Source of the DNA: an uncultured bacterium
GTDB lineage: Bacteria > Planctomycetota > UBA1135 > GCA-002686595
DNA: 42,287 bases
Reading direction: 5' to 3'
NCBI GenBank assembly: GCA_905480285.1
Contig: CAJQPT010000131.1
Location: 1-42,287, forward strand
The notes under the pieces are model-generated. The model saw nothing but the letters and a program-made list of their open reading frames with translations, searched no databases and was not told the origin of the DNA. Within the stretch, counting starts at the first letter, position 1. Every line of letters starts with the position of its first letter. The translations under genes and the position numbers were made by a program. Shown in pieces: positions 38,010 through 42,287 of this stretch.

Positions 38010-40577
38010 ATGTCGCATCGATCCCCGATCCTGGCAGCTGCTGGGGCCTTGGGCCTCGCAGCGTGTGGAATGGAGGGCGTCTCGGTCTCAGGACCGGAGA
38101 CGACCGTGGGCTTCGTCAGCAGCGCCTCGAGCCACGGGGAAGACGACGGGGCTCTGTTCATCGCCGTCGAGCTGACCACGGACCTCAACGCGCTGCCCCA
38201 GCCGGTCTCCGTCACGGTCTCCGACGGCCTGTCCGGCTCTGCCACCAGCGGGGCCGACTACGTCCCGTTCGCCCCGATCGAGGCGTCCTTTCCCGCGGGC
38301 TCACTCAGCGGCGCGACGACCCTCGTCCAGGTCACCGCCCTCGGAGACAACCTCGCCGAGGGAGCCGACGAGACCGTCCAGCTGGTCCTCACCGACGCGT
38401 CCGGGGCCACCCTCGGGAGCACCACCGAGACCCTGCTCAGCCTGACCGATGCCGAGAGCGCCGACGTGCGCTTCGTACAGCCCACGAGCCTCACGCCGGA
38501 TGAGTCGCCGGCGAGCTACGACATGGACGTCGAGCTCGTCCTCTCCGCCGGAGCGACCCTCGCCTTTGACATCGACCTCGTCGCCGTGGACGGAGGCGCG
38601 GGGACGGCGACCTCCACTGCGGACTACCAGGCGGTCGCGCCAGCCGCGATCCAGTTCAGCGCGGGCACCCCCTCGGGGGCCACGCGCACCGTCACCGTGG
38701 ACGTCCTCGATGACGCCCTCTCGGAGGGGCCGGAGACGGTCCGCCTGAGCCTCTCGGGGGCCGACCTCTCCCGGCTCACCCTGGCGGGGCCCGCCGAGCA
38801 CGTGCTCACGATTGTCGACGACGAGGGAGCGCCCACTCCCCTGTTCGGGGCGAGCCACGGGCCGACCACCGGGGTCGAGACCACCCTCGTGTCTGGAGAC
38901 ACCGTGGACCTCGGCACCATGCCCAACGAGGGCGGCGCGAGCGTCGGCACCCTCCTGGTCCTCGCGAACCAGGGCGGCGCGGACATGCTCCTCGGCCAGC
39001 CCACCTTCGGCGGGACGGACCCGACCGACTTCTCCCTGGAGATCGAGGCCGCCAGCTTCGAGAACGGCGAGATGGTCGTCGCGTCCATGTCCGCCCCAGG
39101 AGAGACCGTCGACCTGGCCGCGCCGTTCGTACGCGCCGCCGCCCTCGGCCCGCCCGCTGCCACGGCACGCCCCGGCGTCGAGGTGGCGGTGGACGCCGCC
39201 AGCCTCGCCGACCTGCAGTACTTCGACCACGTCCGCCTGCACGGCTTCCCCGTGCCCGGGGGCGGCGACGTCACCCTGGAGCTGGACCGGATTCCCCTGC
39301 CGATCACGAGAGACGCCGTGCTGGCCCTCGACGGCAGGCCCGTCTCGGGGGGCCTCCGGGCCGCGCTCGGGGACCTCTCGACCTGGAGCGGACGGGCCCT
39401 CGAGCTCCCCGGCAGCCGCGTCTTCCTCGCCCTGCGCGAGGCCGGCCCCGAGGGCTGGATCGAGCTGCCCTTCGAGGACGGGCGCTTCATTCACCTCACC
39501 ACCGAGACCGCCGCCACCCCCGGAACCGCGGCCACCTGTCGCCTCATTCACGAGGATGACCTGCTGGCCCTGGCGCCGGACGCCCGCCCGCCCCTGTGCA
39601 GCGGCATGGAGCTCCCGCCGGGCGCCCAGCTCCCCTCACAGCTGGCCTCCTTTGGCAGCGGCGGCGCGGCGCCCGGTGCCCTACCCGGTGCTCTACCCGG
39701 CGCTCTACCCGGCGCTCTACCCGGTGACGGGGACCCGCCGACCTCGGGCCTCGTGACCGTCGCCACGTGCCGCCTCGCCATCGAGACCGACTGGCAGTTC
39801 TTCCAGAAGTTCGGGAACGCCTCCGACGCCACGGCCTACGTCACCGGCCTCATCGCCGCGATCAGCGACGTGTACTTCGAGCACGTCCAGACCACCCTCA
39901 CGATCGCCTACATCGGCCTCCACTCCACCTCCGCCGATCCCTGGACCGCGCCCGACGTCGGCGCCAGCGCCGGCGCGCTGCTGAGCGAGTTCCGCAGCAG
40001 CTGGAACAGCTCGGGGTGGCCCGTGTCTGCCGACCTCGCGCACTTCATGTCCGGCGCGGACCTCGGCGGCGGCATCGCGTATGTGAACGTGCTGTGCAGC
40101 CCGAACTTCGCCTACGGGGTCAGCGGGAACATGAACGGCAACATTGACTGGGGGACCTGGACCGGCAACCCCGGGAGCTTCACCTGGGACTTCGTGGTGG
40201 TGGCCCACGAGCTGGGGCACAACTTCGGCGCCGAACACACCCACGAGTACTGTCCGCCCATCGACACCTGCACCACCAACTGCACCGGCGGCACTGCCTG
40301 CAGCCTGGGCACGCTGATGAGCTATTGCCACTCCTGCGGCGGCATGAACAGCATCGACCTCCGCTTCCACCCGCAGGTCTCCAACATCATGCGGAGCCGG
40401 GTGGACGCCAGCTGCCTGGGCGACGCGACCATGCAGGCGGGGGACACCATCCAGTACCGCCTGCGCTTCGCGCCCCGCAGCGGCGCGGGCGCGAAGAACG
40501 CCACCCTGGACGTGGGGCACGACGCGGCAAACGCGCCGTCGCCCTTCACGATCAACGTGACGGGCCTGGCCCAGTAG
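38010..40577 (+). CDS. Lipoprotein with Calx-beta domains and M12B-type zinc metalloprotease domain
   Basis: This 855-residue secreted protein has a lipobox at LAAC (C19), so it is probably lipid-anchored. Two Calx-beta-like domains follow (about residues 30-150 and 150-275; ATSGADYVPF and ATSTADYQAV start matching strands, and DNLAEGADETVQL and DALSEGPETVRL close them). A middle region of about 300 residues is unassigned and ends in a Gly-Ala-Leu-Pro repeat. The metalloprotease domain has H733-E-L-G-H737-x5-H743 (HELGHNFGAEH), with a downstream Met-turn candidate (LMSYC) and many cysteines (CPPIDTCTTNC). A reprolysin-like fold is likely. A GGGGAG ribosome-binding site precedes the ATG. The substrate is unknown. 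Confidence 0.88.
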   Translation: MSHRSPILAAAGALGLAACGMEGVSVSGPETTVGFVSSASSHGEDDGALFIAVELTTDLNALPQPVSVTVSDGLSGSATSGADYVPFAPIEASFPAGSLSGATTLVQVTALGDNLAEGADETVQLVLTDASGATLGSTTETLLSLTDAESADVRFVQPTSLTPDESPASYDMDVELVLSAGATLAFDIDLVAVDGGAGTATSTADYQAVAPAAIQFSAGTPSGATRTVTVDVLDDALSEGPETVRLSLSGADLSRLTLAGPAEHVLTIVDDEGAPTPLFGASHGPTTGVETTLVSGDTVDLGTMPNEGGASVGTLLVLANQGGADMLLGQPTFGGTDPTDFSLEIEAASFENGEMVVASMSAPGETVDLAAPFVRAAALGPPAATARPGVEVAVDAASLADLQYFDHVRLHGFPVPGGGDVTLELDRIPLPITRDAVLALDGRPVSGGLRAALGDLSTWSGRALELPGSRVFLALREAGPEGWIELPFEDGRFIHLTTETAATPGTAATCRLIHEDDLLALAPDARPPLCSGMELPPGAQLPSQLASFGSGGAAPGALPGALPGALPGALPGDGDPPTSGLVTVATCRLAIETDWQFFQKFGNASDATAYVTGLIAAISDVYFEHVQTTLTIAYIGLHSTSADPWTAPDVGASAGALLSEFRSSWNSSGWPVSADLAHFMSGADLGGGIAYVNVLCSPNFAYGVSGNMNGNIDWGTWTGNPGSFTWDFVVVAHELGHNFGAEHTHEYCPPIDTCTTNCTGGTACSLGTLMSYCHSCGGMNSIDLRFHPQVSNIMRSRVDASCLGDATMQAGDTIQYRLRFAPRSGAGAKNATLDVGHDAANAPSPFTINVTGLAQ
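39672..39720 (+). repeat. 12-base tandem repeat coding for (PGAL)n
   Basis: Four units of CCCGGYGCYCTA begin at 39672, 39684, 39696 and 39708, with a partial fifth. It encodes a Pro-Gly-Ala-Leu linker just before the protease domain of the metalloprotease lipoprotein. Confidence 0.9.
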
Positions 40578-40591
40578 GGCTCACCGTCCGC

Positions 40592-40611
40592 GAGGCTCCG
40601 CGCGGAGCCTC
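40592..40611. terminator. Bidirectional terminator between the metalloprotease gene and dsbD
   Basis: GAGGCTCCGC and GCGGAGCCTC form a perfect 20-base palindrome (8-bp stem, GCGC loop) between convergent genes; it overlaps the dsbD stop codon. No T-run is present. Confidence 0.5.
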
Positions 40612-42287
40612 AGCGAGCCTCGAGGTCCTCGGTGACCACGGTCATGAACTCGACGAAGGGCGACCAGTCCTTGATGGTCCCACCCTTGAAGCGGCCGAGC
40701 TCCTCCTCGGAGGAGGGGTCCACCGCCACGTAGATGGGCTGGGCGGGGCTGCCCGCGAGGGTTTCGATCAGGCCCGCGATGCGCTCGCGGAGCGCGAGGT
40801 CGTGGGCGTCCGAGTGGAGCCGGGCCTCGACCCAGCGTTGCTTGAGGGCGCGGACTTCAGGCTTGGGGAAGATGGAGACCTCCATCTTGCGGCAGACCAC
40901 TCATGTGTGGCCGGTGAAGTTCACCAGCACACCCAGCCCCCGTTCACGCGCGACCCTGAGGGCCAGGTCGTAGTCGTCCACCACCACCAGCGAGCCTCCC
41001 TGTCGCTTCACTCCTGCGGGAAGGGCCTGGCTGCTGCCGCCGCTGACGACCTCGGCCTTGTGGGTCTCCACGAGGCCCCGGGAGTACTCGGGAGGCGGCG
41101 CCATGGCCGACATGATCGTCTCGTCGAGGTGGTAACCGAGGACGCCCATGAAGCAGTAGGCGGAGCCGATCAGGGTGACCAGGCCGCCGCAGAGCCGGCC
41201 CGGTCCGATCTCCCCGTCCGGGGACTCGCCCTTCAGGTTGATGCGGCCGAACAGGTACATGGCCGCGGCGAGGCCGATGGCCGCCCACATCATCAGGAAG
41301 ACCTCGCGCGGCAGCCAGCCGGCCTGCAGGGCGATGTCCGCGTTGGAGAAGAACTTCAGCGCCGCCGCGAGCTCCACGAAGCCCATGAAGACCTTGAGCG
41401 TGTTCATCCATCCGCCAGCGGAGGGGATCGCGCTCAGGCGGCTGGGGATCAGCGCCAGGACGACGAACGGCGCTGCCATGGTCGCGCCGAACACCCCCAT
41501 GCCGATCACGATTCGCATCACGCCGCCGCTGGCGCCGGCGGCGATCAGGGTGCCGACGAAGGGACCGGTGCAGGTGAAGCTCGTGATCACCAGGGTCAGG
41601 CCCATGAGGAAGACCCCGTAGATCCCGCCCGTGCCGCTGGCCTTGCCCGCGGCACCCATGAGGAACTGGGGCGGGTTGAGCGTGATCGCACCGAAGAGCG
41701 CCAGGGCGAAGACCACGAACAGGACGCCGATGAACAGGTTCGTCACGTAGTGCGTGGCGAAGGGCACCAGCAGGGGCCCGGCGAGGACCCCTAGCAGCAC
41801 GAACATCAGCACGATCCCGAGCCCGTACACCGAGGCGAGCAGGAGCGCGTTGCCGCCCTTCTCGTCCGCCTGCTTGGTGAAGAAGGAGATCGTGATGGGG
41901 ATCATCGGGTAGGTGCAGGGCATCAGCAGGGTGAAGAGCCCCGCGCCGATGGCCAGCAGGATGAACTCCAGCAGCCCGTCGCTCTCGGTCTCCTGGCCGA
42001 AGGAGCGCTTCTCGCCATCCTCCACCGGGGCCTCGATCGTGGGCGTCGACTCCGCCGCGCCGACGACCGCCCCGGCGTCGGTCTCGGTGTCGGTCTCGGC
42101 GTCAGTGCCAGTGCCAGTGCCAGTGCCACTACCGGCATCGGGAACAGCGCCAGGTTCCGTGGCTGCCCCTGCGCCGCCGCTGGCCGCCTGCGGGAGCGTC
42201 CATGTGGCGAAGGCCGCCGCGAACAGTGCGTCCGAGCCGGACCCCACGACCTCGATGCCGGAGAATTTCACCGGGAGGCAGGCGCCG
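40610..42287 (-). CDS. dsbD: Thiol:disulfide interchange protein DsbD with in-frame UGA at the first CxxC cysteine (probable selenoprotein; 5' end outside window)
   Basis: DsbD passes electrons from cytoplasmic thioredoxin across the inner membrane to periplasmic thiol proteins. The frame is open to the right edge, so the N-terminus is missing; the visible start ...ACLPVKFSG fits the end of the periplasmic alpha domain. A Thr/Gly/Asp/Glu linker follows, then about eight membrane segments with the transmembrane cysteines in MPCTYP (41915-41917) and FTCTGP (41570-41572). The C-terminal thioredoxin domain reads VNFTGHT-UGA-VVCRKMEVSIF, where the family has T-C-x-x-C-RKME. The UGA (40901-40903) thus replaces exactly the first catalytic cysteine, and the frame continues 97 codons to the natural end. 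A SECIS-like hairpin follows. Gene finders would split it at 40900/40901. A nonsense mutation or sequencing error is the alternative. Confidence 0.88.
40869..40888 (-). promoter_or_regulatory. Candidate bacterial SECIS element in dsbD
   Basis: On the minus strand AAGAUGG (40888-40882) and CCAUCUU (40875-40869) form a perfect 7-bp stem around the hexaloop AGGUCU (40881-40876). The loop begins 19 bases after the UGA. Both the loop sequence and the distance resemble the E. coli fdhF SECIS as I recall it (AGGUCU, about 17 bases from UGA), where loop G and U are bound by SelB. Confidence 0.75.
42103..42126 (+). repeat. Six-base tandem repeat in the dsbD linker
   Basis: Four perfect copies of CAGTGC (GCACTG on the coding strand) encode a Gly-Thr repeat between the periplasmic and membrane domains of DsbD. 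Copy number could vary by slippage without changing frame. Confidence 0.85.

Follow-up and report, generated by a model that had tools for sequence, protein, structure and literature searches.

Does the in-frame UGA that interrupts a dsbD-type gene of an uncultured planctomycete end the protein prematurely, or does it encode a selenocysteine (Sec) at the active site? The window, which is the whole stretch of 42,287 nucleotides analysed here (contig CAJQPT010000131.1), belongs to a genome of 4.5 Mb distributed over 339 contigs and 84% complete. Its minus strand carries a frame reading ...VNFTGHT-TGA-VVCRKMEVSIF..., in which the TGA at 40903-40901 is the sole interruption, and beyond this codon the frame remains open for 96 more codons until a second TGA (40612-40610). 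An earlier note on this DNA had placed a TGA at the codon of the first cysteine of the CxxC motif in the gamma domain of a DsbD, and had described a frame running on to the C-terminus; its coordinates and numbers were correct, and so was its description. The coding part held by the window comprises the end of the N-terminal part, the DsbD_TM membrane domain and the gamma thioredoxin domain (Table 1). The gene leaves the contig at 42287; contig C13, also from this genome, carries its 5′ part, and the end of C13 shares exactly 141 bases with that of the window. The sequence evidence set out below suggests that a gene which looks broken in fact probably encodes a complete selenoprotein. Our main reading, with a probability of about 0.9, is that the window gene encodes a whole DsbD-type protein whose UGA would be decoded as Sec at the attacking position of the gamma-domain UxxC motif.

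Table 1. Position of the dsbD-type gene and its features in the window
Feature	Position	Strand	Basis or remark
dsbD-type gene, 3′ part (558 codons, UGA read through)	40613..42286	-	DsbD_TM 76.8 bits, Thioredoxin_7 27.7 bits
In-frame UGA opening the gamma-domain UxxC, predicted to encode selenocysteine	40901..40903	-	frame; relatives
TGC, resolving Cys of UxxC	40892..40894	-	TGC/TGT in 174/174 distinct sites
SECIS-like hairpin AAGAUGGA[GGUC]UCCAUCUU, loop 40877-40880	40869..40888	-	8 bp, 12 nt after UGA
Terminal TGA of the dsbD-type gene, ordinary stop	40610..40612	-	four near relatives also TGA here

The four near relatives that share the terminal TGA differ from the window in the sequence beyond it. 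At this stop, between two convergent genes, a hairpin resembling a terminator but lacking a T run, GAGGCTCC[GCGC]GGAGCCTC (window 40592-40611), was spotted by eye. The adjoining gene (window 38010-40577) encodes a large protein that contains HELGHNFGAEH, a zinc-protease motif, and, at about 39670-39727, several GALPG repeats in a short run.

The domain content of the protein was established by profile searches. The membrane domain was recognized by DsbD_TM (PF02683), and the gamma domain, with U read as the first C, matched Thioredoxin_7 (PF13899) barely above the cut-off of 27 bits; PF13098 gave a weak score on the same domain (17.5 bits, below its cut-off of 27). The gamma domain is probably the one named DsbDgamma in CDD (cd02953). 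In a full-length relative of the same genus (G002), DsbD_N (34.6 bits for a cut-off of 25) was found together with DsbD_TM and Thioredoxin_7. This relative contains two N-terminal CxxxxC stretches, and the same two are present on contig C13 of the window genome. An alignment of 33 members, in which the window row closes with one extra residue from the terminal TGA, shows no variation at the membrane cysteines C32 and C147 or at either catalytic position. The AlphaFold2 model of the protein (mean pLDDT 80.6, pTM 0.79) places the predicted Sec at the point where a central strand gives way to the next helix, immediately ahead of that helix, as in thioredoxins. The only PDB structures matched at E <= 0.001 were two chains of 3f9u (Bacteroides); Foldseek linked the model to DsbDgamma structures with a probability of 0.97-1.00 at E of about 0.1, with CcdA at rank 30, and the sequence-profile search returned chains of 3f9u, CcdA and DsbD with E values no higher than 0.01.

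The protein was then compared with known systems. E. coli DsbD (gamma domain structures 1vrs, 2fwe-2fwh and 1uc7) has its N-terminal, membrane and thioredoxin domains in the same order, but it has Cys and not Sec, and its sequence is distant from that of the window protein. CcdA (5vkv) was matched in the fold and profile searches. The protein missed the cut-off of PRK00293, the curated NCBIfam DsbD subfamily (92.5 versus 330 bits), and it is therefore named here DsbD-type and not a member of that subfamily. The cut-off of the TsoB model (NF045694) was also missed (107.6 versus 805 bits). TsoB, a selenoprotein resembling a rhodanese/DsbD fusion, has the DsbD-type membrane domain in common with the window protein (residues 99-345 of the latter), but it is listed with a UxxxxU motif and two Sec, whereas the window protein has UxxC and no rhodanese match in Pfam. 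No NCBIfam selenoprotein model among those looked at covered the family; a Trx7/PDZ model matched 23 of the 33 members weakly.

The homologous codon was then followed among the relatives. A first search gave a match in 60 of 61 genomes, the own genome included, and at the 30 best-scoring places in the related genomes (window included) the codon was TGA in 27 and Cys in 3, which is above chance for TGA. A draw over the phylum covered 392 genomes, at least 169 of which had a match at 1e-40, and supplied loci from 92 further genomes (15 plus 80 hand-picked places, three genomes being shared); 58 of these 92 had UGA, 26 had Cys, and 8 were without a readable site. Once these 8 were left out of the 122 genomes, UGA was found in 85 and Cys in 29 of the remaining 114, proportions that do not come from a random sample because the 80 places were picked by hand, often one per genus. 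Aligning the homologues, as the earlier note had proposed, yielded 174 distinct sites over all loci, 145 with UGA and 29 with Cys and nothing else at the codon, an exclusivity partly built in by the profile alignment, which needs a Cys-like residue at this place. The second residue of the motif was Cys in every distinct site (the profile favours such sites).

A pattern scan for TGA in the genomes of named species, which is biased towards TGA, gave at least 119 stretches, of which 114 were confirmed by the profile and L051, L100, L115, L146 and L160 were not. The UGA form occurs in two finished genomes, Poly30 (CP036434.1) and Pla86 (CP036296.1), neither of which is labelled a MAG in its title. 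The first, named Saltatorellus ferox Poly30 in PMC10896814, belongs to the same genus as the window genome, and Saltatorellus is placed in Planctomycetota by NCBI. In some UGA relatives (L062, L101, L102, L103, L122, L129 and others) a C-terminal extension was observed, with about 190-198 codons after the UGA compared with the usual 85-105.

These comparisons bear on the possibility that the UGA does end translation, or is an error of assembly, the gene being a pseudogene or encoding a membrane protein devoid of the gamma domain. The standard code does read UGA as a stop, and conservation is slightly lower after the codon than before it: between the window and four near relatives, the ratios of synonymous to nonsynonymous codon differences were 7:5, 13:6, 9:3 and 8:5 after the UGA, versus 5:1, 21:3, 24:8 and 22:5 in the 100 codons that precede it. 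The stretch after the UGA is thus somewhat looser, but the changes still fall mostly at third positions and the frame stays open. Furthermore, the same codon is UGA in the 85 genomes from many families mentioned above, two of them finished and not MAGs, and the genome holds the Sec machinery described below. Taken together, these observations render both a genuine stop and an assembly error very improbable.

On a tree of the relatives, which was built from few columns, has many open forks and is weakly resolved, the UGA/Cys label changes at least 10 times, three of these changes being forced by well-supported branches. The changes indicate that Sec and Cys replaced each other more than once in this gene; we claim no direction.

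Decoding of UGA as Sec would require a dedicated machinery, which the earlier note had proposed to look for. All the components sought were found in the window genome: a tRNA-Sec with anticodon TCA (69 bits for a cut-off of 47), selA (454.5 bits), selB (327.9 bits, or 350.2 together with a neighbouring piece) and, adjoining selA, selD (327.2 bits). The selD gene has its own in-frame TGA, read as UGA within CAGU..K (L018, G000:C25:30963-31907), so that the window genome probably makes a second selenoprotein, SelD. About 32 nt past this TGA, inspection by eye showed a hairpin with the arms CACGCA/TGCGTG and the loop GGTGC.

Across the relatives, with selB-less genomes marked by hand, selB scored above the cut-off in 81 of 85 UGA genomes and in 24 of 29 Cys genomes, the exceptions among the latter being G033, G196, G266, G327 and G409. 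As a predictor of UGA versus Cys, selB was rejected because those 24 Cys genomes possess it too. The four UGA genomes without selB over the cut-off, G120, G187, G209 and G325 (loci L243, L258, L244 and L192), are all MAGs with a completeness of 76-90%, and the missing genes are probably assembly gaps. One genome outside the 114, G031, has a TGA within its match and no selB over the cut-off.

We then analyzed the RNA signal. The SECIS of E. coli fdhF has the loop AGGUCU, at a distance after the UGA similar to that of the window hairpin, and differs in that the window stem is perfect and uninterrupted and lies in another gene. The earlier note had reported a perfect hairpin with loop AGGUCU 12 bases past the UGA; we recovered this hairpin as 8 bp closed by a GGUC tetraloop, the six-base loop of the note arising when the A-U pair next to the tetraloop is taken as open. 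The bSECIS rules were applied as a loop of 3-9 nt, a stem of 4-16 bp, a UGA-to-loop distance of 16-37 nt and an MFE <= -7.5; these rules, with a G in one of the first two loop places, come from the accessible part of PMC13188914. The window hairpin passes them, with 8 bp, a GGUC loop 20 nt from the UGA and an MFE of -8.7 kcal/mol. Taken by itself, this hairpin is not unusual: among 200 dinucleotide-shuffled versions of the 49-nt segment, 36 folded equally well (z -0.89), and 14% of the synonymous recodings of the window peptide give a GGUC stem of equal or greater length. On the strength of both controls, significance from the window hairpin alone was rejected. The case for a SECIS is carried by the comparison of sequences among relatives.

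Short sites and sites with ambiguous DNA were excluded from this comparison, 142 or 141 of the 145 UGA sites being kept. A rule-fitting hairpin within 16-37 nt was found at 45 of 141 UGA sites versus 1 of 29 Cys sites, and lifting the spacing limit (to 55 nt) raised these counts to 102 of 141 versus 3 of 29, with contiguous stems only being counted and the sites being non-independent through shared ancestry. Of the UGA sites, 57 pass the rules only beyond the spacing limit and 39 have no contiguous rule-fitting hairpin. The comparison of the hairpin across relatives, put forward in the earlier note as a check, speaks in favour of its interpretation, the 39 sites counting against it. When each site was set against its own recodings, the mean z was 1.27 for UGA sites versus 0.43 for Cys sites, and single sites reached p 0.05 in 29 of 141 and 3 of 29 cases, respectively. 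The folding energy of the whole segment hardly separates UGA from Cys sites (p 0.057).

Could the UGA instead be translated independently of SelB, as a different amino acid, through a suppressor tRNA or a reassigned code? Such readthrough would give the same picture of the frame, and it would account for the UGA sites where the simple hairpin is missing. However, the codon is one of a catalytic residue and is UGA in some relatives and Cys in others, the window gene and its near relatives also end in TGA, tRNA-Sec and SelB are present, and SECIS-like hairpins are enriched at UGA sites. We hold this explanation to be hardly credible. The proposal of the earlier note, a UxxC DsbD with Sec, is supported by the machinery, by the exchange of UGA and Cys and by the excess of hairpins at UGA sites.

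The position of the putative signal is not the same in all relatives. A GGUC loop at the place of the window hairpin is found in 11 distinct UGA sites, nine of them in the window's genus and two (L192 and L209) in another family; well-supported branches force two separate appearances of this loop. In 81 of 142 UGA sites a GGUC occurs 44 nt after the UGA, beyond the accepted 16-37 nt, and in 71 of these 81 it is closed by at least four uninterrupted pairs. The commonest far form is CCGGC-GGUC-GCCGG, which encodes P-A-V-A-G. Over the six pairs of the far helix, pairing holds in 408 of 486 cells, against a mean of 355 and a maximum of 369 in 2000 shuffles, and every slide of the helix gives a lower value. 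Changes on both sides affect 47 cells, versus a maximum of 24 in 2000 shuffles; since the far set was selected by its GGUC, the constancy of the loop is built in, but the covariation of the stem is not. At the same positions, the Cys relatives have 57 of 174 cells paired.

A second helix, GGAAGA...UCUUCC, lies nearer to the UGA in the far set. There, 442 of 486 cells are paired (maximum 434 in 2000 shuffles), and both-side changes reach 22 cells versus a shuffle maximum of 17. The Cys relatives form 124 of 174 cells of this near helix, which is therefore partly a codon effect. From these sequence patterns we think it rather probable that the SECIS has moved along one orthologous gene, from 20 nt in the window's genus to 44 nt in most UGA relatives sampled, the near helix perhaps folding up the gap and the protein being shaped to P-A-V-A-G.

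Alternatively, the working SECIS of the far-type relatives might be the near helix itself, the GGUC at 44 nt being something else. This would keep the signal within the accepted spacing, and the near helix is indeed paired above all 2000 shuffles, with its 22 both-side cells. We regard this alternative as doubtful: the pairing of the near helix persists in the Cys relatives to a much greater extent than that of the far helix (124 versus 57 of 174 cells), its loop is variable and often misses the early G, and both-side changes affect 47 cells of the far helix versus at most 24 in the shuffles. Moreover, 57 of the 141 UGA sites fit the rules solely at the far place, as against only 19 that do so at both. 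In one locus (L052, 6832-6870), a near hairpin AGATGGA[GTTC]TCCATCT was observed, the loop of which is a GUUC variant of GGUC; this gene continues for 258 codons after the UGA.

Sec in a domain of the DsbDgamma type has very probably been recorded before. The 2008 Global Ocean Sampling survey counts 22 UxxC sequences under 'Trx-like 2 (Thiol disulfide interchange protein)', cd02953 (accessible part of PMC2398784). That entry shares with the window protein a thioredoxin-like domain, the UxxC motif and the thiol:disulfide interchange name; in the accessible part it is a table row of metagenomic reads, compared here by its description, without a membrane domain, host phylum or SECIS position. A 'Thiol:disulfide interchange protein' (PF13098, UxxC, WP_011366075.1) figures in an inventory from 2026 that covers 119 families (PMC13188914 Table 1), in which the TsoB fusion is the only other DsbD-like family named. 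This protein is, like the window protein, a UxxC thiol:disulfide interchange protein, but it comes from other phyla, and it too was compared by description. A selenoprotein of the same name is listed for Geobacter and Syntrophus in the accessible part of PMC1794560. The Sargasso Sea paper (PMC1088965) contains none of the five terms looked for, and a 2016 paper reports selenoproteins in two planctomycetes, with the list placed in its supplement (PMC4807772, accessible part). Our full-text literature search, within the portions of the sources accessible to it, returned no description of a Sec-containing full-length DsbD, nor of its spread in Planctomycetota or of the shifted SECIS. The earlier note knew of no described DsbD of this kind, while allowing that metagenomic surveys may contain one; the novelty it hoped for holds for the full-length form in the texts accessible to the search, but is reduced by the 2008 row of cd02953 (PMC2398784, accessible part).

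How would such a protein be made and work? SelB charged with Sec-tRNA-Sec would bind the hairpin just past the UGA, and Sec would be delivered instead of termination; we infer that Sec is inserted at this codon. The electron route of E. coli DsbD is the model for the one proposed here. By analogy, electrons would pass from cytoplasmic thioredoxin to the membrane Cys pair, which lies in MPCTYP and SFTCTGPF, next to the Sec/Cys pair of the gamma domain, and from there through the Cys pairs of the N-terminal domains to periplasmic clients. With Sec, the protein may work faster or withstand over-oxidation better.

If the SECIS has indeed shifted, the 16-37 nt spacing rule would be too narrow and would miss a class of bacterial selenoproteins, and a tandem-hairpin SECIS would be tolerated or used by planctomycete SelB. 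The near, far and lost-with-Cys forms constitute a natural series on the reach of SelB and on the reshaping of a coding sequence by an RNA signal. If a selenium form is spread through the phylum, many planctomycete dsbD genes would be at risk of being annotated as truncated. Saltatorellus ferox Poly30 is an isolated strain (accessible part of PMC10896814), so that the protein is open to direct study. DsbD supplies reducing power to the periplasm, and the carriers are widespread bacteria of water, sediment and groundwater; a Sec-containing DsbD throughout a phylum would tie the redox chemistry of their envelope to the supply of selenium.
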